This document shows, in pieces, positions 22,814-43,211 of a stretch of DNA of 64,000 bases (the first letter of the stretch is position 1; each line of letters opens with the position of its first letter). The notes beneath the pieces were generated by a model, which saw only the letters and a program-made list of their open reading frames with translations, was not told the DNA's origin and searched no databases. This DNA comes from Pseudomonas monteilii (GTDB lineage: Bacteria; Pseudomonadota; Gammaproteobacteria; Pseudomonadales; Pseudomonadaceae), in contig CP013997.1 of the NCBI GenBank assembly GCA_001534745.1, forward strand, positions 2,480,001 through 2,544,000, in the 5' to 3' direction. The position numbers and the translations under genes were made by a program.

Positions 22814-23857
22814 TCACTCCTTCCAATCGGTCGAGGGTTTTTCCCACAGGTTGATGCCGCCTTCGACGGCGTGCTGGTCGATCTCGGCCAGCTCTTCGTC
22901 GCTGAAAGCCAGGTTTTCCAGGGCCGCCACGTTCTCGGTGATCTGTTCCGGGCGGCTGGCGCCGATCAGGGCCGACGTCACCCGCGGATCGCGCAGGGTC
23001 CAGGCCAGCGCCAGCTGCGCCAGGCTCTGCCCTCGGCGGGCGGCAATGGCATTGAGCGCGCGGGCGCGGGCCAGGTTGGCGTCGCTCAGGTGTTCGGGCC
23101 GCAACGAGCTGCCGCCCGCGCGGTTGACGCGGGCGTCGTCAGGAATGCCGTTCAGGTACTTGTCGCTGAGCAGGCCCTGGGCCAGTGCGGTGAACACGAT
23201 CACACCGGCGCCCAGCGCCTCGGTGGTGTCCAGCAGGTCCTGTTCGATCCAGCGGTTGAACAGGTTGTAGGCCGGTTGGTGGATCAGCAGAGGTACCCCT
23301 CGCGCCTGCAGCAGTGCGGTGATCTCCCGCGTCTTTCCGGCCGAGTACGAAGAGATGCCGATGTACAGCGCCTTGCCCTGCCGGACGATGTCGGCCAGCG
23401 CCGCTGCGGTTTCCTCCAAGGGCGTGTCCGGGTCGAAACGGTGCGAATAGAAGACGTCGACGTAGTCCAGGCCCAGCCGCTGCAGGCTCTGGTCGAGGCT
23501 GGCGATCAGGTACTTGCGCGAGCTGCCGCCCTGACCGTATGGCCCTGGCCACATGTCCCAGCCGGCCTTGCTGGAGATGATCAACTCGTCGCGGTAGGCA
23601 CGCAGGTCCTCGCGCAACAGGCGGCCGAAGTTGGTTTCGGCGCTGCCGTACGGTGGCCCGTAGTTGTTGGCCAGGTCGAAGTGGTTGATGCCCGCGTCGA
23701 ACGCGGTGCGCAGCAGGGCGCGCTGGGTATCCAGGGGCGTGGCGTCGCCGAAGTTGTGCCACAGGCCAAGGGACAGCGCCGGCAGCACCAGGCCACTGCG
23801 GCCGACGCGACGGTAAGGCATGTGATCGTAGCGTTGCGGATGGGCGACGTAGCTCAT
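22814..23857 (-). CDS. Aldo/keto reductase, L-glyceraldehyde 3-phosphate reductase type (YghZ)
   Basis: NADPH-dependent TIM-barrel reductase, 347 residues, very like E. coli YghZ/Gpr. The catalytic Tyr is in HFDLANNYGPPYGSAETNFG, the catalytic Lys in IISSKAGWDMWPGPYGQGG, and SALIGASRPEQITENVAAL is the cofactor loop. YghZ reduces methylglyoxal and L-glyceraldehyde 3-phosphate. In this operon it may instead act on the aldehyde released by the neighbouring monooxygenase. Its start overlaps the stop of that monooxygenase by four bases (ATGA), so translation is coupled. Confidence 0.9.
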   Translation of the reverse strand: MSYVAHPQRYDHMPYRRVGRSGLVLPALSLGLWHNFGDATPLDTQRALLRTAFDAGINHFDLANNYGPPYGSAETNFGRLLREDLRAYRDELIISSKAGWDMWPGPYGQGGSSRKYLIASLDQSLQRLGLDYVDVFYSHRFDPDTPLEETAAALADIVRQGKALYIGISSYSAGKTREITALLQARGVPLLIHQPAYNLFNRWIEQDLLDTTEALGAGVIVFTALAQGLLSDKYLNGIPDDARVNRAGGSSLRPEHLSDANLARARALNAIAARRGQSLAQLALAWTLRDPRVTSALIGASRPEQITENVAALENLAFSDEELAEIDQHAVEGGINLWEKPSTDWKE

Positions 23858-31331: not shown

Positions 31332-32741
31332 TCACTCATGCGCGCTCACCACCCGCCCCGCCTTGATGGCCGCCGCCTTTCCGCGCGTCGCCAGGCAGTA
31401 GTACAGCGGCGCCGTCACCAGCAACCCGAACAGCCAGGACAGGTCCGCCCCTTCGACGAGGTTCGAGTACGGCCCCACGTACAACGCGGTATTGGCGAAC
31501 GGCAACTGCACCAGGATTCCGCAGGCATAGGCGATGATCGCGTGGTGGTTGAAGCGGCCATAGATCCCGCCATCGGCGCTGAAGATCGAGGCGATGTCGT
31601 ACACACCCTTCTTGATCAGGTAGAAGTCGATCAGGTTGATCGACGCCCACGGCACCAGCACCAGCAGCAGCGCCAGGATCAGCCCGATGAACTGACCGAT
31701 GAAATCGGCCGAGGCGTTCAACGCCACCATGCCGCAGGCCAGCAGAATCACCGACGCCAGCACGACGCGCACCTTCACGCTCGGCGTCCAGTGGGCGAAG
31801 AAGGTCTGGATCGCGGTGACGATCGACAGCACCGCACCGTACAGGTTGAGGGCGTTGTGGCTGATGATGTTGAGCAGGAACAGCACCATCAGCACCGGGC
31901 CGAGCCAGCCGGTGGCCTGCTTCACCGCATCCATCGCATCGGTGCCCTGCGGCACGCACAACACCGCCACCGCACCGAAGCTGAAGCACAGGATCGTGCC
32001 CAGGGTCGCACCGAAGTAGGTGGCCCAGAACGGCTTGGCGATACCGATCTCCTTGGGCAGGTAGCGCGAGTAGTCGGAGGTGTACGGCGAGAAGCTGATC
32101 TGCCAGATGGTGCCCAGCGACACGGTGGCGATGAACCCGGACAGGTTGAAGGCGCCGCGACTGAAGAAGTCGGCCGGCAGTTCCTGGCTGAACATCATGA
32201 TGAAGCCGGCCAGCAGGGCCGAGCCCATCACCCAGGTGCCGATGCGGTTCAGGCTGTGGATGAAGCGGTAGCCGATCACGCCGATGGCGGTCGCGCTCAG
32301 GGCGCCGATGACGATGGCGGTCGGCATGGGCACGCTCGGGGCGATGCCATGGATCGACTTGCCCGCCAGGACGATGTTGGAAATGAAGAAGCCGACGTAG
32401 ATCAAGGCGGTGAAGAAGACGATCAGCAAGGCGCCGTAGCGACCGAACTGCCCACGGCTCTGCACCATCTGCGGAATGCCCAGCTGCGGTCCCTGCGCAG
32501 AGGCCAGGGCGATGACCACGCCCCCGATGAGGTGCCCGAGTGCGATGGCGATCAGCCCCCAGAGCAGGTTCAGGTTGAACACCTGGACCACCATGGCGCC
32601 GGTCACGATGGGCAGTGGCGCGATGTTGGTGCTGAACCAGAGGGTGAACAGGTCGCGCGCCTTCCCGTGGCGCTCGGCAGGTGGAACGTAATCGACCGTG
32701 TGATTCTCGACAAGCTGGTGCTGCGAAGACGGCTGGGACAT
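31332..32741 (-). CDS. NCS1-family nucleobase/cytosine permease (CodB-like)
   Basis: Inner-membrane symporter, 469 residues with about twelve helices. NCS1 motifs are FSTNIAPLPIVTGAMVVQVF in helix 1, GLIAIALGHLIGGVVIALAS in helix 2, GPQLGIPQMVQSRGQFG in the following loop, and FSPYTSDYSRYLP in helix 6. Relatives carry cytosine, allantoin, hydantoin, uracil or vitamin precursors. It is divergent from the monooxygenase operon and a partial copy of that operon's palindrome lies in front of it. I infer that it imports the N-heterocyclic substrate of the pathway. Confidence 0.9.
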   Translation of the reverse strand: MSQPSSQHQLVENHTVDYVPPAERHGKARDLFTLWFSTNIAPLPIVTGAMVVQVFNLNLLWGLIAIALGHLIGGVVIALASAQGPQLGIPQMVQSRGQFGRYGALLIVFFTALIYVGFFISNIVLAGKSIHGIAPSVPMPTAIVIGALSATAIGVIGYRFIHSLNRIGTWVMGSALLAGFIMMFSQELPADFFSRGAFNLSGFIATVSLGTIWQISFSPYTSDYSRYLPKEIGIAKPFWATYFGATLGTILCFSFGAVAVLCVPQGTDAMDAVKQATGWLGPVLMVLFLLNIISHNALNLYGAVLSIVTAIQTFFAHWTPSVKVRVVLASVILLACGMVALNASADFIGQFIGLILALLLVLVPWASINLIDFYLIKKGVYDIASIFSADGGIYGRFNHHAIIAYACGILVQLPFANTALYVGPYSNLVEGADLSWLFGLLVTAPLYYCLATRGKAAAIKAGRVVSAHE

Positions 32742-32815
32742 AGGATTTTAGCTCGAAAGGTCGTTTTTATCGTTGTACGGAAACCGCTCGGGGCGGCCTC
32801 TCAGCTGAGGACCAT

Positions 32816-32831
32816 ATTATGGTATTCCAAA
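32816..32831. promoter_or_regulatory. Degenerate operator half before the NCS1 permease
   Basis: TTATGGTATTCCAA (32817-32830) resembles the core TTATGGTATACCATAA of the palindrome at 34805-34826. It lies about 75 bases upstream of the permease start, within a 307-base divergent gap that contains no gene. It could let the same regulator control the permease. Confidence 0.4.
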
Positions 32832-32985
32832 CTTTTGACAACACTGATCCGCCGTAAATCGCGCCTTCTGATCCGCTCCGGTTCATCCTCAAGGCTTTTG
32901 CTGAATCCATTCAGGCCTTTAAATACGCGGCCTCCAGCCGTTCATCCTGTTTTTTTGGCGCCTGCAAAAAGCGCTTGCAAATCGG

Positions 32986-33007
32986 GTATTACGGTATACC
33001 ATCAGAC
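32986..33007. promoter_or_regulatory. GntR-type operator before the first flavin reductase
   Basis: A 22-base site with core ACGGTATACCATCAGAC matches the perfect palindrome at 34805-34826 at 19 of 22 positions. It lies 41 bases upstream of the first flavin reductase gene. The TGGTATACCA-like core is the type of dyad bound by FadR-family GntR proteins, and such a gene closes the operon (38873). Confidence 0.65.
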
Positions 33008-33048
33008 ACATCAACTATAAAAAACGGCTCCCAATCGAGGATCACGCC

Positions 33049-33534
33049 ATGATTGATGCAACCGTCTACAAGAACGTCCTGGGCTCGTTTCCTTCCGGCG
33101 TCACCGTCATCACCACCCTGGACGACGACGGCTCGATCGTCGGCCTGACGGCCAGCGCGTTCTCCTCCCTGTCGATGGATCCACCCCTGGTCCTGTTCTG
33201 CCCGAACTACACCTCCGATTCCTACCCGGTGCTGATCCGCAACAAGCGCTTCGCCATTCATCTGCTCTCCGGCGAGCAGCAGGCTGAAGCCTACGCCTTC
33301 GCCCGCAAGGGCAAGGACAAGGCGGCCGGCATCGAGTGGACCTTGAGCGAGCGCGGCAACCCGCTACTGGCCAACGCCACCGCCATCATCGAATGCGAAC
33401 TGTGGCGCGAGTACGAAGGTGGCGATCACGCCATCATGGTCGGCAAGGTCGAGAACCTGATCGTGCCCGCCGATGCCCCCAACCCCATGATCTATTGCCG
33501 CGGCAAGATGGCCAGCCTGCCAGCCCTCGGCTGA
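33049..33534 (+). CDS. Flavin reductase family protein (RutF/HpaC-like), copy 1
   Basis: NAD(P)H:FMN oxidoreductase of the flavin_reduct family, 161 residues. Motifs are YKNVLGSFPSGVTVITTLDD near residue 7, GLTASAFSSLSMDPPLVLFC near 32-51 and FAIHLLSGEQ near 69. It should supply reduced flavin to the luciferase-like monooxygenase encoded 87 bases downstream, as RutF does for RutA. GAGG precedes the ATG at 33049. A second reductase of the same length lies at 37841 in the same cluster and is about 70% identical by hand count. Confidence 0.9.
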   Translation: MIDATVYKNVLGSFPSGVTVITTLDDDGSIVGLTASAFSSLSMDPPLVLFCPNYTSDSYPVLIRNKRFAIHLLSGEQQAEAYAFARKGKDKAAGIEWTLSERGNPLLANATAIIECELWREYEGGDHAIMVGKVENLIVPADAPNPMIYCRGKMASLPALG

Positions 33535-33621
33535 GCCAGACGCCGCCTGCGGGCCTGCGCCCGCCCTGCCCGCTTCAGCCTGCCCGCCAGGCCACCATGA
33601 CAATTCTGCGAGGAAAGCCCC

Positions 33622-34665
33622 ATGAAGTTTTCGTTGTTCGTGCACATGGAACGTTGGGATGACCAGGTCAGCCACCGCCAGCTGTTCGAAGACCTGACCG
33701 AACTGACCCTGATGGCCGAAGACGGCGGTTTCAGCACCGTCTGGATCGGCGAACACCACGCCATGGAGTACACCATCTCGCCCAGCCCGATGCCGCTGCT
33801 GGCCTACCTGGCCGCGCGCACCGAGACGATCCGCCTGGGCGCCGGCACCATCATCGCCCCGTTCTGGAACCCGATCCGGGTGGCAGGCGAATGCGCGCTG
33901 CTCGACGTGATCAGCAACGGGCGCATGGAAGTCGGCCTGGCCCGCGGCGCCTACCAGTTCGAGTTCGACCGCATGGCCAATGGCATGCCGGCGACCGATG
34001 GCGGCAAGGCCCTGCGCGAAATGGTCCCGGCGGTGCGTGAGCTGTGGAAGGGCGACTATGCCCACGAAGGCGAGGTGTACAACTTCCCCACTTCGACCAG
34101 CGTGCCCAAGCCGGTGCAGGACGGCATGCCACCGATGTGGATCGCCGCGCGTGACCCGGACTCGCACAACTTCGCGGTCAAGCACGGCTGCAACGTGATG
34201 GTCACGCCCCTAATGAAGGGTGATGAAGAGGTGCTGGACCTGAAGAACAAGTTCCAGGCCGCACTCGACAACAACCCGGACGTGCCGCGCCCTCAACTGA
34301 TGGTGCTGCGCCACACCCATGTGCACAGCCCGGCGGATCCGGACGGCTGGAAGGTCGGCGCCGAGGCGATCTCGCGCTTCTACCGCACCTTCGACGCCTG
34401 GTTCGGCAACAAGACCACGCCGGTCAACGGCTTCCTGGCGCCGAGCCCGGAGTCGAAGTTCGCCGAGGTGCCTGCGTTCGCCCTGGACAACATCCGCAAG
34501 AACACCATGATCGGCACGCCCGAAGAAATCATCGCGCGGATCAAGTACTACCAGGAACTGGGCGTCGACGAGTTCAGCTTCTGGTGCGACAACAGCCTGC
34601 CCCATGCCGAGAAGAAAAAGTCGCTGGAGCTGTTTATCAACGAAGTGGTACCGGCGTTCCGGTAA
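33622..34665 (+). CDS. Luciferase-like (LLM class) flavin-dependent monooxygenase
   Basis: FMNH2-dependent TIM-barrel monooxygenase, 347 residues. Motifs are TVWIGEHHAMEYTISPSPMP near residue 40, RLGAGTIIAPFWNPIRVAGE near 73-92, NGRMEVGLARGAYQFEFDRM near 102-121 and MIGTPEEIIARIKYYQELGV near 300. The fold matches RutA and other ring-opening or C-S/C-N cleaving two-component enzymes. It follows a flavin reductase and lies opposite an NCS1 permease, so an oxidative attack on an N-heterocycle is the natural reading. It is not close enough for me to name it RutA. The next gene has its own operator and is 195 bases away. Confidence 0.9.
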   Translation: MKFSLFVHMERWDDQVSHRQLFEDLTELTLMAEDGGFSTVWIGEHHAMEYTISPSPMPLLAYLAARTETIRLGAGTIIAPFWNPIRVAGECALLDVISNGRMEVGLARGAYQFEFDRMANGMPATDGGKALREMVPAVRELWKGDYAHEGEVYNFPTSTSVPKPVQDGMPPMWIAARDPDSHNFAVKHGCNVMVTPLMKGDEEVLDLKNKFQAALDNNPDVPRPQLMVLRHTHVHSPADPDGWKVGAEAISRFYRTFDAWFGNKTTPVNGFLAPSPESKFAEVPAFALDNIRKNTMIGTPEEIIARIKYYQELGVDEFSFWCDNSLPHAEKKKSLELFINEVVPAFR

Positions 34666-34804
34666 ACGGTGCGAGGGGGTCTTTACCGCCTTCTGAAGCG
34701 GTTCCTGCCGGGGTGCCGGCACGACCGCGAAAGGCCGGATGGCGGCAGCGTCACCCCGCCCCTACGCGCGCGACGTATTTTCCATACACCCTGTTGCAGG
34801 TATC

Positions 34805-34826
34805 GTCTTATGGTATACCATAAGAC
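34805..34826. promoter_or_regulatory. Perfect 22-bp palindromic operator before the DUF1185 gene
   Basis: GTCTTATGGTAT and its exact complement ATACCATAAGAC overlap to give a perfect 22-base palindrome centred on GTATAC. It lies 34 bases before the DUF1185 start and defines a second regulated promoter within the cluster. Its near copy is at 32986-33007. Confidence 0.7.
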
Positions 34827-34860
34827 AACAAAGCCCCGAACACCCATCATGGAGCCGCTC

Positions 34861-35457
34861 ATGAGTTTCGAAATCCGCAAGATCGTCACCTACTCCGAAG
34901 AAACCCGCATCGAAGGCGGCAAGGCTACCGACAAGCCGGTGACCATGGTCGGCCTGGCCGTCGTGATCAAGAACCCTTGGGCAGGTCGCGGTTTCGTCGA
35001 AGACCTCAAGCCTGAGATCCGTGAGCACTGCTCCGACCTCGGCGCGCTGATGGTCGAGCGCCTGACCGCTGCCATCGGTGGCGCGGACAAGATCGAAGCC
35101 TACGGCAAGGCCGCCGTGGTCGGCGCCGATGGCGAGATCGAGCACGCCTCGGCCGTGATCCACACCCTGCGTTTCGGCAACCACTACCGCGAGGCGGTGC
35201 AGGCCAAGAGCTACCTGAGCTTCACCAACAAGCGTGGCGGCCCGGGCACGTCGATCCAGATCCCGATGATGCAGAAGGACGACGAAGGCCAGCGCTCGCA
35301 CTACATCACCCTGGAAATGCAGATCGAAGACGCGCCGCGCGCCGACGAGATCGTGGTGGTCCTGGGTGCCTCCGACGGTGGCCGCCTGCACCCGCGCATC
35401 GGCAACCGCTACATCGATCTCGAAGAGATCGCTGCCGAGAAAGCCAACGCTCAATAA
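34861..35457 (+). CDS. DUF1185 / amino acid synthesis (AA_synth) family protein
   Basis: Protein of 198 residues in the AA_synth (DUF1185) family, whose biochemical role I do not know to be established. Visible conserved segments are KIVTYSEETRIEGGK, KNPWAGRGFVEDLKPEI near residue 42, GKAAVVGADGEIEHASAVIH near 82, and GGPGTSIQIPMMQKDD near 122. GGAG precedes the ATG at 34861 by six bases; an ATG at 34849 is less likely. It opens the second transcription unit of the cluster. A hydrolase or isomerase acting on a ring-opened intermediate is a guess from context. Confidence 0.85.
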   Translation: MSFEIRKIVTYSEETRIEGGKATDKPVTMVGLAVVIKNPWAGRGFVEDLKPEIREHCSDLGALMVERLTAAIGGADKIEAYGKAAVVGADGEIEHASAVIHTLRFGNHYREAVQAKSYLSFTNKRGGPGTSIQIPMMQKDDEGQRSHYITLEMQIEDAPRADEIVVVLGASDGGRLHPRIGNRYIDLEEIAAEKANAQ

Positions 35458-35515
35458 CAATGATCAGAGGAAACGGGCGCGCCGTCGGCCGCCCTGCCCT
35501 CAAGGAGCGCCGTCC

Positions 35516-36349
35516 ATGATTCAGCCTGCTGCTGAACGTACACCGGCCGGGACCAGTTACCTGAGCCTCGGCCAGGGTCAACCTGTGGTGCTGATCCACG
35601 GCGTGGGCCTGAACAAGGAAATGTGGGGCGGGCAGTTCGTCGGCCTGGCCAACGACTACCGCGTCATCGCCTACGACATGCTGGGACACGGCATGAGCCC
35701 ACGCCCGGCAGCCGACACTGACCTGGCCGGCTATGCCGCGCAACTGGTCGAGCTGCTCGATCACCTGCAGATCCAGCAGGCGACGGTGATCGGTTTCTCC
35801 ATGGGCGGCCTGGTGGCTCGGGCCTTCGCGCTGCACTACCCACAGCGCCTGAGCGCACTGGTCGTGCTCAACAGCGTCTTCAACCGCACGCCCGAGCAGA
35901 GCGCCGGGGTCATCGCCCGGGCTGCCCAGGCCGCCGAACTGGGCCCGGACGCCAACGTCGACGCCGCCCTGGAGCGCTGGTTCAGCCCTGAATACAAGGC
36001 CGCCAACCCGGCCCAGGTCGCAGCCATCCGCCAGGTGCTGGGCGACAACGACCCCCAGGGCTACCACACCACCTATTCGCTGTTCGCCACCCAGGACATG
36101 TACCGCGCCGACGACCTGGACACGATCCAGGCCCCAACGCTGATCGCCACCGGCGAGCTGGACACCGGCTCCACCCCGGCCATGACGCGCCAGCTGGCCG
36201 CACGCATCCCGGGCGCCCGCAGCGTGATCCTCGCCGAACAACGCCACATGATGCCGGTGGAAGCGCCGCGTGAAGTCAACCGCATGCTGCTGGACTTCCT
36301 TGGCCACGCCCGCACGCTTACCGAATCCGCCAAGGGGATAGTCGCATGA
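35516..36349 (+). CDS. Alpha/beta hydrolase (RutD / enol-lactonase-like)
   Basis: Alpha/beta hydrolase of 277 residues. The oxyanion motif is VVLIHGVGLNKEMWG near residue 25, the nucleophile elbow is VIGFSMGGLVARAFA (Ser near 99), the acid lies in LIATGELDTGSTPAM and the His in LAEQRHMMPVEAP near 250. The layout resembles 3-oxoadipate enol-lactonase (PcaD) and RutD. AAGGAGC lies seven bases before the ATG. Its stop overlaps the start of the aldehyde dehydrogenase by four bases, so the two are translated together. It probably hydrolyses a lactone, amide or carbamate formed after ring oxidation. Confidence 0.88.
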   Translation: MIQPAAERTPAGTSYLSLGQGQPVVLIHGVGLNKEMWGGQFVGLANDYRVIAYDMLGHGMSPRPAADTDLAGYAAQLVELLDHLQIQQATVIGFSMGGLVARAFALHYPQRLSALVVLNSVFNRTPEQSAGVIARAAQAAELGPDANVDAALERWFSPEYKAANPAQVAAIRQVLGDNDPQGYHTTYSLFATQDMYRADDLDTIQAPTLIATGELDTGSTPAMTRQLAARIPGARSVILAEQRHMMPVEAPREVNRMLLDFLGHARTLTESAKGIVA

Positions 36350-37827
36350 CCCTCGTTCGTTTCCAGATGTGCATCGATGGCCAATGGCGCGATGCGCAGA
36401 GCGGCAAGACCTTCGACAGCCTCGATCCGGCCACCGCCCAGGCCTGGGCCCAGTTGCCCGACGCCGACGAAGCCGATGTCGAGCAGGCCGTGCAGGCGGC
36501 CCAGCGCGCCTTCGACAACCCGGCCTGGCGTGGTCTGACCGCCACGGCCCGAGGCAAGCTGCTGCGCCGCCTGGGCGACCTGATCGCCGAGAACAAGGAG
36601 CACCTGGCCCAGCTGGAAAGCCGCGACAACGGCAAGCTGATCCGCGAGACCCGCGGCCAGGTCGGTTATCTGCCCGAGTTCTTCCACTACACCGCCGGCC
36701 TGGCCGACAAGCTCGAAGGCGGTACCCTGCCGCTGGACAAGCCGGACCTGTTCGCCTACACCGTGCACGAGCCGATCGGCGTGGTGGCCGGGATCATCCC
36801 GTGGAACAGCCCGCTGTACCTGACCTCGATCAAGCTGGCACCGGCCCTGGCCGCCGGCAACACCATCGTGCTCAAGCCCTCCGAGCATGCCTCGGCGACC
36901 ATCCTCGAGCTGGCGCGCCTGGCCCTGGAAGCCGGCTTCCCGCCGGGCGTGGTCAACGTGGTCACCGGTTTCGGCCCGAGCACGGGCGCAGCCCTCACCC
37001 GCCACCCGCTGGTGCGCAAGATCGCCTTCACCGGCGGCGCGGCCACGGCGCGTCACGTGGTGCGCAGCAGCGCCGAGAACTTCGCCAAGCTGTCGCTCGA
37101 GCTGGGCGGCAAGTCGCCGAACATCATCTTCGCCGACGCCGACCTGGACAGCGCCATCAATGGCGCCGTGGCCGGGATCTACGCGGCCTCCGGGCAGAGC
37201 TGCGTGGCCGGTTCGCGCCTGCTGGTGCAGGACGAGATCTTCGATGAGTTCGTCGAGCGCCTGATCGCCCGCGCCCAGCGCATCCGCATCGGCAACCCGC
37301 AGCACGACGACAGCGAGATGGGCCCGATGGCCACCGCGCAGCAGCTGGCCGTGGTCGAGCAGCTGGTCGCGGCCGCCCAGGCCGAAGGCGCTACCCTGCG
37401 CATGGGCGGCAAGCGCGCCCAGGTCGAGGGGGACGGCTGGTTCTACGAACCGACGCTGTTCGAATGCGACAGCAACTCGATGACGATCATGCAGGAAGAA
37501 GTCTTCGGCCCGGTCGCGGCGGTGATCCGCTTCAAGACCGAGGAAGACGCCCTGGCGATCGCCAACGACTCGCAGTTCGGCCTGGCCGCCGGCATCTGGA
37601 CCCGCGACCTGGGCCGTGCGCACCGGCTGGCGCGCGATGTCCGCTCGGGTATCATCTGGGTCAACACCTACCGCGCGGTCTCGGCCATGGCCCCGATCGG
37701 TGGGTTCAAGAACAGCGGCTACGGCCGCGAGAGCGGCATCGACTCGGTGCTCGCCTATACCGAGCTGAAGACCGTGTGGATCAACCTGTCCACCGCGCCG
37801 ATGCCCGACCCCTTCGTGATGCGTTGA
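36346..37827 (+). CDS. NAD(P)-dependent aldehyde dehydrogenase
   Basis: Aldehyde dehydrogenase of 493 residues. The cofactor region is GIIPWNSPLYLTSIKLAPAL near residue 150, the general base Glu is in LSLELGGKSPNIIFADADLD near 252, and the catalytic Cys is in ASGQSCVAGSRLLVQDEIF near 287. EEVFGPVAAVIRF follows near 384. It should oxidise the aldehyde left after ring opening, for example a semialdehyde. It overlaps the hydrolase gene by ATGA and is followed 14 bases later by the second flavin reductase. Confidence 0.92.
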   Translation: MTLVRFQMCIDGQWRDAQSGKTFDSLDPATAQAWAQLPDADEADVEQAVQAAQRAFDNPAWRGLTATARGKLLRRLGDLIAENKEHLAQLESRDNGKLIRETRGQVGYLPEFFHYTAGLADKLEGGTLPLDKPDLFAYTVHEPIGVVAGIIPWNSPLYLTSIKLAPALAAGNTIVLKPSEHASATILELARLALEAGFPPGVVNVVTGFGPSTGAALTRHPLVRKIAFTGGAATARHVVRSSAENFAKLSLELGGKSPNIIFADADLDSAINGAVAGIYAASGQSCVAGSRLLVQDEIFDEFVERLIARAQRIRIGNPQHDDSEMGPMATAQQLAVVEQLVAAAQAEGATLRMGGKRAQVEGDGWFYEPTLFECDSNSMTIMQEEVFGPVAAVIRFKTEEDALAIANDSQFGLAAGIWTRDLGRAHRLARDVRSGIIWVNTYRAVSAMAPIGGFKNSGYGRESGIDSVLAYTELKTVWINLSTAPMPDPFVMR

Positions 37828-37840
37828 GAGGTACACTGAG

Positions 37841-38326
37841 ATGATCGAACCCGGGATCTACAAAGACGTGATGGGCTCGTTCCCATCCGGCGTGACGATC
37901 GTCACCACCCTGGATGCCGACGGCGGCATCGTCGGCATCACCGCCAGCGCCTTCAGCGCGCTGTCGATCGATCCGGCGCTGGTGCTGTTCTGCCCCAACT
38001 ACAGTTCGGACACCTACCCGGTCCTGCGCGACAGCAAGTCCTTCGCCATCCACCTGCTGTCGGCCGAACAGACCAAGGAGGCCTATGCCTTCGCCGGCAA
38101 AGGCAAGGACAAGGCCAACGGCATCGACTGGCAGTTGAGCGAACGGGGCAATCCCATCCTGCCCAACGCCACGGCGGTGATCGAATGCGAACTGTGGCGC
38201 GAATACGACGGTGGCGACCACGCCATCATCGTCGGCGCGGTCAAGCACCTGATCCTGCCGGACACCCCGCTGGCACCGATGCTCTATCACAAGGGCAAGC
38301 TTGGCGCCCTGCCGCCGCTTGGCTGA
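37841..38326 (+). CDS. Flavin reductase family protein, copy 2
   Basis: Second flavin reductase of exactly 161 residues. It is colinear without gaps with the protein from 33049, with about 113 of 161 identical positions by hand. It shares YKDVMGSFPSGVTIVTTLDA, ITASAFSALSIDPALVLFCP and ECELWREYDGGDHAIIVG. Differences concentrate at the flavin-distal loop around residues 62-90 and near the C-terminus. Either it serves a second oxygenation step, or it is a redundant copy. GAGAGG precedes the ATG. Confidence 0.9.
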   Translation: MIEPGIYKDVMGSFPSGVTIVTTLDADGGIVGITASAFSALSIDPALVLFCPNYSSDTYPVLRDSKSFAIHLLSAEQTKEAYAFAGKGKDKANGIDWQLSERGNPILPNATAVIECELWREYDGGDHAIIVGAVKHLILPDTPLAPMLYHKGKLGALPPLG

Positions 38327-38333
38327 TACCGTT

Positions 38334-38380
38334 TTTGGGGTCGTGCCGCACTCACCCTCGGTTGCGGCCCCGTTTTCTTT
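38334..38380 (+). terminator. Possible internal terminator/attenuator
   Basis: GCCGCA (38345-38350) pairs with TGCGGC (38363-38368), with an outer GGG/CCC after a small bulge, followed by CGTTTTCTTT. It lies between the second flavin reductase and the decarboxylase-like gene, so it may lower expression of the last genes. Confidence 0.35.
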
Positions 38381-38395
38381 CCAGGAGCTTGCGCC

Positions 38396-38785
38396 ATGAG
38401 CAGCGAGAAGTACGAAAAAGGCCTGGCCATCCGCACCCAGGTGCTGGGCGAGGACTACGTCAACCGCTCGATCCAGAATGCCGATGCCTTCACCCAACCC
38501 TTGCAGGAACTGGTCACCGAGTACTGCTGGGGCCACGTCTGGGGCCGTGATGGTTTGTCGCTCCAGGAACGCAGCATGATAAACTTGGCCATGATTTCCG
38601 CGCTCAACCGCCCCCATGAGCTCAAGCTGCATATCCGCGGCGCCTTGCGCAACGGGCTGAGCCGCGAACAGATTCGCGAAATCCTGCTCCAGGTCGGCAT
38701 CTACTGCGGCGTGCCGGCGGCGGTGGACAGTTTCCGCCTGGCGCGCGAAGCGTTCGCCGAGGCCGACGCGGAGTCAACCCGTTAA
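38396..38785 (+). CDS. Carboxymuconolactone decarboxylase family protein (PcaC-like)
   Basis: Small helical protein of 129 residues that closely follows the PcaC pattern. It has GLAIRTQVLGEDYVNRSIQN at the start, EYCWGHVWGRDGLSLQERSM near 43-62, and ILLQVGIYCGVPAAVDSFRL near 100. PcaC decarboxylates 4-carboxymuconolactone; it lacks the AhpD CxxC pair, as here. The presence beside an enol-lactonase-like hydrolase suggests decarboxylation of a cyclic or lactone intermediate, by inference. TCCAGGAGC lies seven bases before the ATG. Confidence 0.87.
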   Translation: MSSEKYEKGLAIRTQVLGEDYVNRSIQNADAFTQPLQELVTEYCWGHVWGRDGLSLQERSMINLAMISALNRPHELKLHIRGALRNGLSREQIREILLQVGIYCGVPAAVDSFRLAREAFAEADAESTR

Positions 38786-38872
38786 CAACGGGCCAGTCGA
38801 ACCCTGCAGGAAGCACCCAGGTTCGGGGTGTCCCGCAGCCAGGATTCGGCGGCCTCTCTCAGAGCGCACTCG

Positions 38873-39625
38873 ATGAAACGCCAGCCCCTCGACGACAGCT
38901 TCAAGGTCAACCGCAATCCCGTTACCCTGCGTGAAATCGTGCTCGACAAGCTGCGCGCCGCGATCATGAACTTTCACCTGCTGCCCGGCGACCGTCTGGT
39001 CGAGCGCGACCTCTGCGAGCGGTTGGGCGTCAGCCGCACGTCGGTGCGCGAGGCGCTGCGTCACCTGGAATCCGAAGGGCTGGTGGAATTTGCAGACGCC
39101 AAGGGGCCCCGCGTCGCCATCATCACCCTGGAAGACGCGCGCGACATCTACGAGCTGCGCTGCGTGCTGGAAGGCCTGATCGTCCAGCTGTTCACCCTCA
39201 ACGCCAAGGCCAAGCACATCCGGGCCCTGGAGCGCGCGCTGGAAGAAAACCGCGAAGCCCTGGAAGAAGGCGAGCTGCAACAGGTGCTCGACTCGGTCCA
39301 GGGTTTCTACGACGTGCTGCTGGAAGGTTCGGGCAACCAGGTCGCCGCGACCCAGCTGCGCCAGCTGCAGGCGCGCATCAGCTACCTGCGCGCCACCTCG
39401 GTATCGCAGGTCAACCGCCGAGGTGCCAGCAACCTGGAGATGGAGAAGATGGTCGAGGCGATCAAGAGCGGCGATCCGCTGGTCGCGCACCAGGCCTCGG
39501 TCGATCACGTACGTGCCGCCGCCAAGGTGGCGCTGGAGTATCTGCGCCAGAAGCAGGATGACACGGCCAAGGTGCGCGACCTGGTCGCCCCGGTGGCCCT
39601 CAAGGACCCCCGCATAGGCCGCTGA
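38873..39625 (+). CDS. FadR-family GntR regulator of the cluster
   Basis: DNA-binding protein of 250 residues. The winged helix is at about 18-85 (PGDRLVERDLCERLGVSRT, SVREALRHLESEGLVEFADA). An FCD domain follows at about 95-230 (DARDIYELRCVLEGLIVQLF). It is in the same direction as the catabolic genes and 88 bases after the PcaC-like gene. The shared palindromes at 32986-33007 and 34805-34826 are of the type bound by this family, so I infer it is the local repressor. The ATG at 38873 is taken as the start, with an in-frame ATG at 38828 possible. Confidence 0.88.
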   Translation: MKRQPLDDSFKVNRNPVTLREIVLDKLRAAIMNFHLLPGDRLVERDLCERLGVSRTSVREALRHLESEGLVEFADAKGPRVAIITLEDARDIYELRCVLEGLIVQLFTLNAKAKHIRALERALEENREALEEGELQQVLDSVQGFYDVLLEGSGNQVAATQLRQLQARISYLRATSVSQVNRRGASNLEMEKMVEAIKSGDPLVAHQASVDHVRAAAKVALEYLRQKQDDTAKVRDLVAPVALKDPRIGR

Positions 39626-39627
39626 TC

Positions 39628-40191
39628 ATGCCCAACGCCCCGCGCTACTGCCCCCACTGCACCCTGGAACTGGCTCGGGGCACCCCGCCCGGCGATACCC
39701 ATGAGCGCCTGCACTGCACAGGCTGTGGGTACATTCATTACGTAAACCCGAAGATCATCGCCGGCTGCATCATCGAACGCGAGGGCAAGTACCTGCTCTG
39801 CCGGCGCGCCATCCCGCCCCGTCCTGGGACCTGGACGCTGCCTGCAGGCTTCATGGAAGCCGGCGAGACCACCGAGGAAGCCGCCTTGCGCGAGGTGTGG
39901 GAAGAAACCGGCGTTCGCGCCGACATCTTTGCGCCCTATTCGGTGTTCAGTGTGCCGCGCATCAGCGAGGTCTACATCATCTTCCGCGCCACCGTCATCG
40001 AGGAAACCGGGCAGTTCGGCACCGAGACGCTGGAGTACCGGTTCTTCGAGCCGGCGGACATTCCGTGGGATGAGATCTATTACCCGGCCATCCGGCAGAT
40101 CCTCGAACGTTACATCCTCGAGCGGCAAGCCGGTGTCTATGGCATCTACATGGGCAACGATGACACGGGCAAGGTGCACTTCATTCGCTAA
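39628..40191 (+). CDS. Nudix hydrolase with zinc ribbon
   Basis: Pyrophosphohydrolase of 187 residues. A four-cysteine zinc ribbon (CPHCTLELARG, then CTGCGYIHYVNP) occupies about 9-36. The Nudix box is GFMEAGETTEEAALREVWEE followed by TGV, at about 73-95, with all catalytic glutamates. The layout resembles NudC/ADP-sugar-type Nudix proteins. It starts two bases after the GntR stop and so is probably translated with it. Whether it belongs to the pathway, for example removing a nucleotide side product, is open. Confidence 0.88.
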   Translation: MPNAPRYCPHCTLELARGTPPGDTHERLHCTGCGYIHYVNPKIIAGCIIEREGKYLLCRRAIPPRPGTWTLPAGFMEAGETTEEAALREVWEETGVRADIFAPYSVFSVPRISEVYIIFRATVIEETGQFGTETLEYRFFEPADIPWDEIYYPAIRQILERYILERQAGVYGIYMGNDDTGKVHFIR

Positions 40192-41362: not shown

Positions 41363-42256
41363 ATGCAACGTCGTGAATTCTTGATCAAGTCCGCCGTGAC
41401 CACGGCGGGCATGGCGCTTGTCCAGGGTGCCTGGGCCAAAGCAGCGCATGAACGCCAATTCGATCATCTGTCTGGCCAAAAAGGTGCAGGTCCAGTGCTA
41501 CGCCTCAAGGGCCTGGCCATCGGCGAGGGCGCGCCCACGATCATCGCCTCGATCACCGGTCGGGACCTCGACACGATCCGTCGACAGACACAGGCCCTGG
41601 CCGCCAGCGAGGCCGTGGACATCGCCGAGCTGCGCCTGGACTACCTGCCCGACACGCTGTCGCTTCAGGACACGGTGGCGTGGGTCGACCAGGTGGTGTC
41701 CGACCTGCACGGCAAGCCGCTGCTGGCGACCTTCCGCAGCGCCCAGGAGGGTGGCGAGCGTGCGCTGCCAGACGATGCGTATGCTCGCCTGTGCAGAGCC
41801 CTGCTGGAACAGACACGCATCGACCTGCTCGACATCGAGATGATGAAACCCCAGGCCAGCGTCCAGGCGCTGGTCGCCAAGGCGCATCAGCAAGGCGTGG
41901 CGGTGATTCTGTCGAACCATGACTTCCAGGCCACGCCCAGCCGTGAGGTGATCGTCGAGCGTCTGCTGCGCCAGCAGGCATTGGGTGCCGATATCCTGAA
42001 GATCGCCGTGATGCCCAAGGCGCCGGAAGATGTCCTGACGCTGATGGCGGCCAGTCAGGAGGTGTACCGCCGCGCGGATCGCCCGTTGCTGACGATGTCC
42101 ATGGGGCCGCTGGGCGTCACTTCTCGCCTGAGCGGCCAGTTGACCGGCGCGGCGCTGACCTATGCCAGCGTCGGACAGGCCTCGGCCCCCGGGCAACTGG
42201 AGGCCAGCGCGGTACGCGAGGTGCTGGACATCGTCCAGCGTGGGGCTCAGGACTGA
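41363..42256 (+). CDS. aroD: Type I 3-dehydroquinate dehydratase with Tat-like leader
   Basis: Schiff-base 3-dehydroquinase of 297 residues that makes 3-dehydroshikimate. Catalytic residues are visible: ELRLDYLP (Glu near 93), the His in ILSNHDFQATP near 195, and the lysine in DILKIAVMPKAPED near 220. Unlike biosynthetic AroD (about 250 residues) it starts MQRREFLIKSAVTTAGMALV with an RR-x-F-L motif and ends the leader at AWAKA, a Tat-like signal. This suggests export and a role in quinate use with a periplasmic quinate dehydrogenase, rather than in biosynthesis. AGGAGG lies four bases before the ATG. Confidence 0.88.
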   Translation: MQRREFLIKSAVTTAGMALVQGAWAKAAHERQFDHLSGQKGAGPVLRLKGLAIGEGAPTIIASITGRDLDTIRRQTQALAASEAVDIAELRLDYLPDTLSLQDTVAWVDQVVSDLHGKPLLATFRSAQEGGERALPDDAYARLCRALLEQTRIDLLDIEMMKPQASVQALVAKAHQQGVAVILSNHDFQATPSREVIVERLLRQQALGADILKIAVMPKAPEDVLTLMAASQEVYRRADRPLLTMSMGPLGVTSRLSGQLTGAALTYASVGQASAPGQLEASAVREVLDIVQRGAQD

Positions 42257-43104
42257 GCCCGGCGGTCCATGGCCATGGCCAGCGCATCGAAAGTGCCCTT
42301 GCTGGCCTCGACCGCCTGCACCACCGTGGCCTTGTCGGCCCACAATGAGTCGGACACGGCTTCCGAAAAGATTTCCAGTACATAGTCACCGGTATACCCG
42401 CACGCGACGATCGCGCCCAGCAGCCCACTCAAGGGGATCGCACCCTCCCCCAGGGCACGGCGGTCGTGCAGCGAGCGTGGGCGGCGCCAGTCGGCCAACT
42501 GCACCAGGAACAGCTTGTCCGCGCTAAGGGTTTCGACCAGCCCGGGATCCTGCCAGCTGTTGTAGAGGTCCAGGCACACCCCGAATGCCGGATGGTCGAC
42601 CTGGGCGGCCAGCTCGCGCGCCTGGCTGAACGCGAACAGGATCGAGTTGCGGTTCATCAACGAAGGCCCCAGGGCCTCCAAGGCGATCTTAAGGCCATGG
42701 GCCTGGGCATGCCGCGCAAGGGTCGGATAGCGCTCGAGGCAGCCGTCCCACACCCGCGCTTCGTTACCTTCGGCATCGGCACCCGTGTTGGTCACCAGCG
42801 GCACGTCCTGCCAGAAGCCTGCGAACAGCTCGACCGTGCGCATCAGCGCATCCAGTCGGGCTTCCGGGGCCTGTGGCTCAGGCGCCGACTGCGTGGGGTA
42901 GAGGGTCAGGATACGCGGCTGGATCGAGGTGATGCGCACCCCGCTGTCCTTGATCATCGCCAACTGGTCGCGCGCCTGCTGCGGGTCGGTGGACAGCTTC
43001 TTTTCGGCAAGTTCCAGCGCGCACCCCAGGCGCCTGCACAGCTGCAGGTCGTCTTCGATGGACAACGGCTGGGTGGTGATCTGGCTGATGGACAGGCGTT
43101 GCAT
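42247..43104 (-). CDS. Sugar phosphate isomerase/epimerase-fold protein
   Basis: TIM-barrel protein of 285 residues in the xylose isomerase-like AP2Ec family. Candidate metal ligands are in ALEALGPSLMN (Glu near 143), GVCLDLYNSWQDP (Asp near 177), VQLADW, and YVLEIFSEAV (Glu near 248); GEGAIPLSG is the usual phosphate/lid motif. The family includes 3-dehydroshikimate dehydratases (AsbF/QuiC-type). It converges on and overlaps the exported dehydroquinase gene by ten bases, and conversion of dehydroshikimate to protocatechuate is an attractive guess. The ATG at 43104 is used; a GTG at 43110 is in frame. Confidence 0.78.
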   Translation of the reverse strand: MQRLSISQITTQPLSIEDDLQLCRRLGCALELAEKKLSTDPQQARDQLAMIKDSGVRITSIQPRILTLYPTQSAPEPQAPEARLDALMRTVELFAGFWQDVPLVTNTGADAEGNEARVWDGCLERYPTLARHAQAHGLKIALEALGPSLMNRNSILFAFSQARELAAQVDHPAFGVCLDLYNSWQDPGLVETLSADKLFLVQLADWRRPRSLHDRRALGEGAIPLSGLLGAIVACGYTGDYVLEIFSEAVSDSLWADKATVVQAVEASKGTFDALAMAMDRRAQS

Positions 43105-43211
43105 GGGCACCCCGGTGAACTGACGGCAAGAAAGACATGCAGTGTCAGAACGACCGGGGTCGGGGGAAGTTCAGGTGGCAAGCGGCAAGCCAGGCCCTGC
43201 TCGCGTTGCCT

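Follow-up and report, generated by a model that had tools for sequence, protein, structure and literature searches.

Trigonelline (N-methylnicotinate) is a plant compound and a betaine. The order of reactions used here for its breakdown is that of the pathway reported by Perchat et al. 2018. According to PMC8269262, bacterial trigonelline degradation starts with opening of the ring by TgnA/TgnB, and Ruegeria pomeroyi grows more poorly on homarine than on trigonelline. According to PMC7913881, TgnF, a homologue of the DUF1185 family, stimulates the TgnE-dependent oxidation of succinate semialdehyde, and such stimulation was not detectable for HcdD, the DUF1185 protein studied there. Here we describe a cluster of ten genes from Pseudomonas monteilii. 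The window, that is, the whole stretch of 64,000 nucleotides that was analysed, is C1:2480001-2544000 of a 4.7-Mb Pseudomonas genome (G000), and the cluster occupies positions 31332-40191 of it, with an NCS1-type permease gene on the minus strand and the remaining nine genes on the plus strand. Judged by homology, the cluster is a rearranged cousin of the trigonelline (tgn) pathway of Acinetobacter. We put the probability that it encodes a Tgn-type pathway whose substrate is trigonelline, or a pyridine betaine closely resembling it, at roughly 0.6; that the cluster opens a pyridine ring is very probable.

The kinship was detected through the luciferase-like monooxygenase (LLM) of the cluster. 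A tblastn search with this protein against plasmids matched 1303 records, and among the 40 matches listed one place was annotated tgnB, its product being the oxygenase of trigonelline monooxygenase on plasmid NZ_CP094644.1 of Acinetobacter sp. PK01. The neighbourhood of this gene contains DUF1330, GntR and DUF1185 genes, a hydrolase gene whose product we take to be TgnD, and tgnA, tgnB and tgnC, and further a cytosine permease gene, a hypothetical gene, a succinate semialdehyde dehydrogenase (SSADH) gene and a CMD-family gene. Identity to the PK01 proteins is highest for CMD (77%), followed by NCS1 (56%), DUF1185 (55%), the aldehyde dehydrogenase (ALDH) compared with TgnC (52% over 494 columns) and LLM compared with TgnB (50%). 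It is weaker for the first flavin reductase, FR1, compared with TgnA (41% over 130 residues), for the GntR regulator (36%) and for the hydrolase (35%). The original prediction called the cluster uncharacterised, and this was too strong because the Tgn pathway is closely related.

The second line of evidence is a palindrome, ATGGTATACCAT, that ends 40 bp upstream of the DUF1185 gene of the window. We compared 80 Pseudomonas loci, which are stretches fetched with DUF1185, some of them ending at contig breaks. An exact copy of TGGTATACCA lies 33-51 bp upstream of DUF1185 in all 80. It occurs 124 times in the 1,134,690 bases of these loci, whereas 29 other palindromes composed of the same half-site letters occur 0.34 times on average and never more than 3 times. 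Each of the 28 measured divergent regions between NCS1 and FR1 also holds two sites that deviate from it in one base at most. Co-regulation of permease and operon, which had been proposed earlier, is supported by this shared palindrome at the level of sequence.

In the genome of the window there are two exact copies, one before DUF1185 and the other at C1:2558395 between the genes of DUF1330 and of RibBA, a protein of riboflavin synthesis, and a copy with one mismatch lies at C1:2559611 upstream of an ABC binding protein gene. The DUF1330-RibBA-ABC block starts approximately 38 kb past the Nudix gene of the cluster, outside the window, and it adjoins the main cluster in three other loci (L110, L111 and L146). 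We infer that the GntR protein binds TGGTATACCA, and one regulon probably covers the cluster, RibBA and the ABC transporter. The DUF1330 gene, which shares its operator with RibBA in Pseudomonas, accompanies many such clusters (L082, L085, L111, L142, L146, L148, L149, L153 and L182).

A further operator comparison concerns 18 loci, leaving out L147, L151, L152 and L156-L159. All 11 tgn-type loci among them carry the palindrome before DUF1185, nine an exact copy and two a copy with one mismatch; the LLM of these loci falls into the TgnB or the Mesorhizobium clade or is basal to both (L143). In PK01 a copy with one mismatch also precedes the SSADH gene. The palindrome is absent from the Arthrobacter locus and from 4/4 loci of a related fourth cluster type (L102 of G048, L103 of G044, L150 and L155). 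Within the helix-turn-helix stretch, the window regulator and that of PK01 have 22 of 30 residues in common, counted manually in the alignment. The GntR type of regulator and the operator are common to the window and the tgn-type loci, a criterion that was itself drawn from this comparison. In the literature texts searched we found neither TGGTATACCA nor tgnABC, and no title on this Pseudomonas gene set; most subscription papers lay outside the search, which makes this weak evidence of novelty.

If the cluster encodes one pathway, then we can ask: How constantly do its genes stay together across the genus? The original prediction suggested the genome neighbourhood of DUF1185 as a check, and the block proved to be conserved across the 80 Pseudomonas loci. 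The hydrolase, ALDH, a match to the second flavin reductase (FR2) and the regulator are each present in 80/80 loci and Nudix in 79/80, at an identity of at least 70%. At an identity of at least 80% and inside the fetched stretch, CMD was found in 67/80 loci and LLM in 29/80. The gene block is kept well beyond chance.

LLM and DUF1185 often lie apart, and therefore we used co-occurrence in whole genomes, in a sample of 119 Pseudomonas genomes with one per species. Orthologues were accepted at an identity of at least 84% for LLM, 86% for DUF1185 and 71% for Nudix; G095, where only 69 residues of LLM are left, and G058, where DUF1185 is partial and the Nudix copy contains stops, were counted as negative, and G046 and G080, in which LLM is broken into pieces, as positive. 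LLM was found in 63 genomes and DUF1185 in 64: both genes in 63, LLM alone in none, DUF1185 alone in one (G076, with 650 contigs) and neither in 55 (Fisher p 1.6e-33, with the kinship of the 119 genomes ignored). The Nudix orthologue is present in the same 63 genomes and in G076, which adds little by itself because the Nudix gene sits in the DUF1185 block. We consider the damaged genes of G046, G080 and G058 to be decaying copies.

The idea that LLM and DUF1185 are always adjacent is false, as the distances between their starts in the 63 genomes show: up to 3 kb in 14, 3-25 kb in 17, 25-100 kb in 14 and more than 100 kb in seven, with the two genes on different contigs in the other 11, a count inflated by contig breaks. 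Altogether 32 of the 63 pairs are more than 25 kb apart or on separate contigs. Among the stand-alone LLM genes that were read, FR1 and NCS1 lie alongside in six loci (L105-L110) and FR1 without NCS1 in L111; neither was seen alongside the LLM of L104. LLM and DUF1185 probably belong to one pathway, though their genes are scattered. In L044, L060 and L065 a second NCS1-type gene (38-39% identical to the first) lies between LLM and DUF1185, and in L060 a hydrolase of the isochorismatase family lies there too. In wider samples, LLM (E 1e-60) was matched in 9 genomes out of 369 drawn from the class and in 23 out of 398 drawn from the phylum, the genome of the window being counted in both, and 18 stretches around such LLMs were read.

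The features of the cluster are collected in Table 1.

Table 1. Genes and operator-like sites of the cluster, in positions of the window
Feature	Position	Strand	Evidence
NCS1-type permease, proposed importer	31332..32741	-	PF02133 156.7 bits; 56% to NCS1 of PK01 tgn cluster
Operator-like site TGGTATTCCA, one mismatch	32820..32829		Sequence; NCS1-FR1 divergent region
Operator-like site CGGTATACCA, one mismatch	32992..33001		Sequence; NCS1-FR1 divergent region
FR1, flavin reductase	33049..33534	+	PF01613 148.2 bits; 41% over 130 aa to TgnA
LLM, flavin-dependent monooxygenase, candidate for ring opening	33622..34665	+	PF00296 190.5 bits; 50% to TgnB
Putative operator, exact palindrome TGGTATACCA	34811..34820		40 bp upstream of DUF1185
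DUF1185 (AA_synth) protein, 198 aa	34861..35457	+	PF06684 241.7 bits; 55% to PK01 homologue
Alpha/beta hydrolase, proposed deformylase/amidohydrolase	35516..36349	+	PF00561 106.6 bits; 35% to PK01 tgn-cluster hydrolase
ALDH, TgnC type	36346..37827	+	PF00171 577.2 bits; 52% to TgnC
FR2, second flavin reductase	37841..38326	+	PF01613 146.4 bits; 64% identical to FR1
CMD-family protein, proposed decarboxylation helper	38396..38785	+	PF02627 78.1 bits; 77% to PK01 tgn-cluster CMD
GntR/FCD regulator	38873..39625	+	PF00392, PF07729; 36% to PK01 regulator
Nudix hydrolase with zinc ribbon, intact-looking Nudix box	39628..40191	+	PF00293, PF14803

Nine of the genes, at 31332-39625, are as the original prediction described them, each above the Pfam cut-off of its family; the Nudix gene lay inside the coordinates of that prediction and was missing from its text. 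For the regulator we chose the inner ATG at 38873 as the start, the open frame beginning at 38828. The 4-base overlap between the hydrolase and ALDH genes and the 2-base gap between the GntR and Nudix genes suggest an operon. The closest named match of the DUF1185 protein is on a Pseudomonas entomophila contig (99% identity), and 2qtp and 3byq are its solved relatives.

By analogy with the trigonelline route, the compound would be imported by the NCS1 permease and by the ABC transporter that carries the same operator elsewhere in the genome. FR1 and FR2 would reduce free flavin with NAD(P)H, and with this flavin and O2 LLM would cleave the ring, yielding an N-formyl enamine aldehyde. ALDH might then oxidize the aldehyde and the alpha/beta hydrolase remove the formyl group, after which the enamine would be hydrolysed and CO2 lost to give succinate semialdehyde, perhaps with the help of DUF1185 and CMD. 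SSADH would convert succinate semialdehyde to succinate. The Nudix enzyme and the probably co-regulated RibBA may supply flavin, and the GntR protein would control all blocks through TGGTATACCA. Homology supports the steps envisaged in the original prediction, in which a flavin monooxygenase and a reductase open an N-heterocycle oxidatively and aldehyde oxidation, hydrolysis and decarboxylation follow, and it also speaks for uptake by the NCS1 permease. The CMD protein, so similar to its tgn counterpart, would suit a substrate whose ring carboxylate is released as CO2. As to SSADH, the genome of the window has at C1:179640 a homologue with 67% identity to the SSADH copy of L111. In L030 the cluster contains an SSADH with 71% identity to the PK01 enzyme, and its copy in L111, likewise inside the cluster, scores above the SSADH cut-off. 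By manual count, 14 of the 80 loci have a further ALDH between FR2 and CMD, 38-46% identical to that of the window; the L030 SSADH is the member of this group that was compared.

The reductases and the Nudix gene are arranged differently from the fused TgnA. By BLAST, TgnA-type reductases match the window Nudix protein in their C-terminal part, with E 2e-10 in the case of TgnA and 2e-15 in that of a Burkholderia multivorans reductase. Flavin reductase is the single domain that Pfam recognises in TgnA; TgnA matches the PDB entry 3rh7 along its length, and 3rh7 also aligns with the window Nudix (E 2.9e-5). The Nudix-like domain of TgnA is therefore defined here by the BLAST matches and the full-length 3rh7 match. 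The box GFMEAGETTEEAALREVWEETGV of the window protein fits the Nudix consensus, and no Nudix box is recognisable in the TgnA sequence, which is why a domain fused and apparently dead in TgnA would correspond to a separate, apparently live enzyme in the window. Its role may be in flavin supply, perhaps the conversion of FAD to FMN, as the presence of RibBA in the probable regulon suggests.

FR1 and FR2 are 64% identical to each other, and L142 and L146 have one reductase each. In the reductase tree both copies fall within Pseudomonadaceae; the key fork has support of only 80/85 and the Arthrobacter row is a long branch. The two reductases may have arisen by duplication at the time when the cluster broke into two blocks. 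Two details appear to be new, the splitting of the TgnA-type fusion of reductase and Nudix and the probable extension of the regulon to RibBA and the ABC transporter. From these one may tentatively draw a bolder picture, which we hold to be possible and somewhat doubtful, of a split and rewired Tgn variant. In it the intact Nudix and the co-regulated RibBA would form a dedicated flavin arm that cuts FAD to FMN and provides riboflavin on demand for a monooxygenase using up free reduced flavin, and one operator would unite ring cleavage, transport and cofactor supply in a regulon kept across Pseudomonas despite the drift of its genes.

In the LLM tree, built on 41 of 82 rows, the window protein forms a clade with an Arthrobacter protein and that of G847, sister to the clade of TgnB and Mesorhizobium. 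Fourteen differences are fixed between the two clades (ten rows each), and most are mild. In L142, whose LLM is 65% identical, a transporter gene of the BCCT (betaine/carnitine/choline) type stands beside LLM and faces operators. The fourth cluster type has an OpuAC protein, a binding protein of the glycine-betaine type, in L102, L103 and L150, and G048 carries such a cluster besides its orthologue of the window set.

Several observations weigh against trigonelline or a close betaine as the substrate of a Tgn-type pathway. The window LLM is in the sister clade of TgnB, not within it, and shows the non-conservative changes Tyr62 for Asp, Met193 for Gln, Gly242 for Asp and Leu337 for Arg. The hydrolase is only 35% identical to that of PK01, there is no SSADH gene in the window, and CMD at an identity of at least 80% is missing from 13 of the 80 fetched loci. 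L142 also has a gene of a TctA-type transporter, further off, and the co-occurrence value is uncorrected for kinship. Sites with one mismatch number 46 genome-wide and 39 for the reversed control, an excess so small that single degenerate copies prove nothing; these copies not being significant, we relied on exact copies and conserved positions. Finally, when other orders are considered, the closest LLM belongs to an Arthrobacter cluster to which no substrate is assigned and which lacks both CMD and the operator.

This last relative leads to the possibility that the same chemistry is directed at pyridine without substituents or at some other simple, uncharged pyridine, as for the Pyr proteins of Arthrobacter sp. 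68b. The pyr cluster of that strain reportedly degrades pyridine by means of an LLM with flavin reductase, an aldehyde dehydrogenase, an amidohydrolase and SSADH. The plasmid protein of Arthrobacter dokdonellae is 75% identical to the window LLM, and its cluster has a reductase, hydrolase, ALDH, LLM and SSADH. However, beyond LLM its proteins are distant (NCS1 25%, ALDH 53%, DUF1185 44-49%, hydrolase 41%), its locus has neither CMD nor the operator, and a charged betaine is suggested by the BCCT transporter of L142, so that we regard a simple pyridine as unlikely. A different N-heterocycle or a non-pyridine substrate, with enzymes merely shared with Tgn, seems more improbable again: several related clusters have different transporters and reductases, and therefore substrates may differ between clades, but the operator, regulator and gene set are shared with tgn clusters. 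Trigonelline or a very close betaine fits the sum of these observations best.

Two readings based on better known pathways can be given hardly any credit. Affinity to the Rut pathway of pyrimidine use, suggested by the original prediction, draws on a likeness in general enzyme types (an LLM with a flavin reductase, an alpha/beta hydrolase and a nucleobase-type permease), but descent from Rut was rejected on the model scores. RutF (67.6 of 254.75 bits) and RutD (98.3 of 238.5 bits) are far under the cut-off, and the RutA model gave seven matches in the whole genome, the best with 72.9 of 498.3 bits and none of them the window LLM. RutB, RutC and RutE are absent from the ten cluster genes, though no search aimed at these families was made. 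Nor do we claim that DUF1185 replaces RutC on the ground of a common fold. A branch of the protocatechuate pathway, with the hydrolase as PcaD and CMD as PcaC, has a chance scarcely greater than that of Rut. The best full-length models are of the PcaD (176.9 bits) and PcaC (152.7 bits) kind, and CMD is the only PcaC-like match in the genome. Both stay under their cut-offs, PcaD at 255.85 bits and PcaC narrowly at 155.7 bits; the genome offers no PcaH above the threshold (54.4 of 296.4 bits), and CMD has its close relative in the tgn cluster, so this branch was rejected as well.

Two neighbouring gene pairs of the window lie outside the described set. One, at 41363-42256 and 42247-43110, includes a type I 3-dehydroquinate dehydratase with a Tat-like N-terminus (206 bits, cut-off 139.3) and a TIM-barrel protein that matches QuiC weakly (60 of 1200 bits); PcaH above cut-off is absent from this genome. 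In the other, a second luciferase-like monooxygenase (PF00296, 23854-25197) stands beside an aldo/keto reductase (22814-23857).

A Tgn-type assignment provides a testable function for a gene set present in 63 of 119 sampled Pseudomonas genomes, and it places DUF1185, CMD and Nudix proteins, so far named by family only, in one pathway. The operator offers a means to find scattered parts of the regulon in other genomes.

Compared with the known systems, the cluster shares with Rut in part the enzyme classes of RutA, RutF, RutD and RutG and has no membership by the models. Likeness to Pyr of Arthrobacter sp. 68b is by gene kinds, the cluster compared in sequence being that of A. dokdonellae, where a separate Nudix gene adjoins a riboflavin kinase gene. 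The hcd genes of Pseudomonas mandelii 7HK4, which serve 7-hydroxycoumarin, include HcdD, a DUF1185 protein related by its authors to TgnF; the terms luciferase and flavin reductase are absent from the main text of PMC7913881. The tgn cluster of PK01 differs from the window in that TgnA unites the reductase and a C-terminal Nudix-like domain in a single protein, where the window has FR1, FR2 and Nudix as three genes, in that SSADH lies inside the PK01 cluster, in gene order, and in the clade of its LLM. In common with the window it has DUF1185, a hydrolase (35% identity), a flavin reductase, LLM, ALDH, NCS1, CMD, the GntR regulator and the palindrome before DUF1185.

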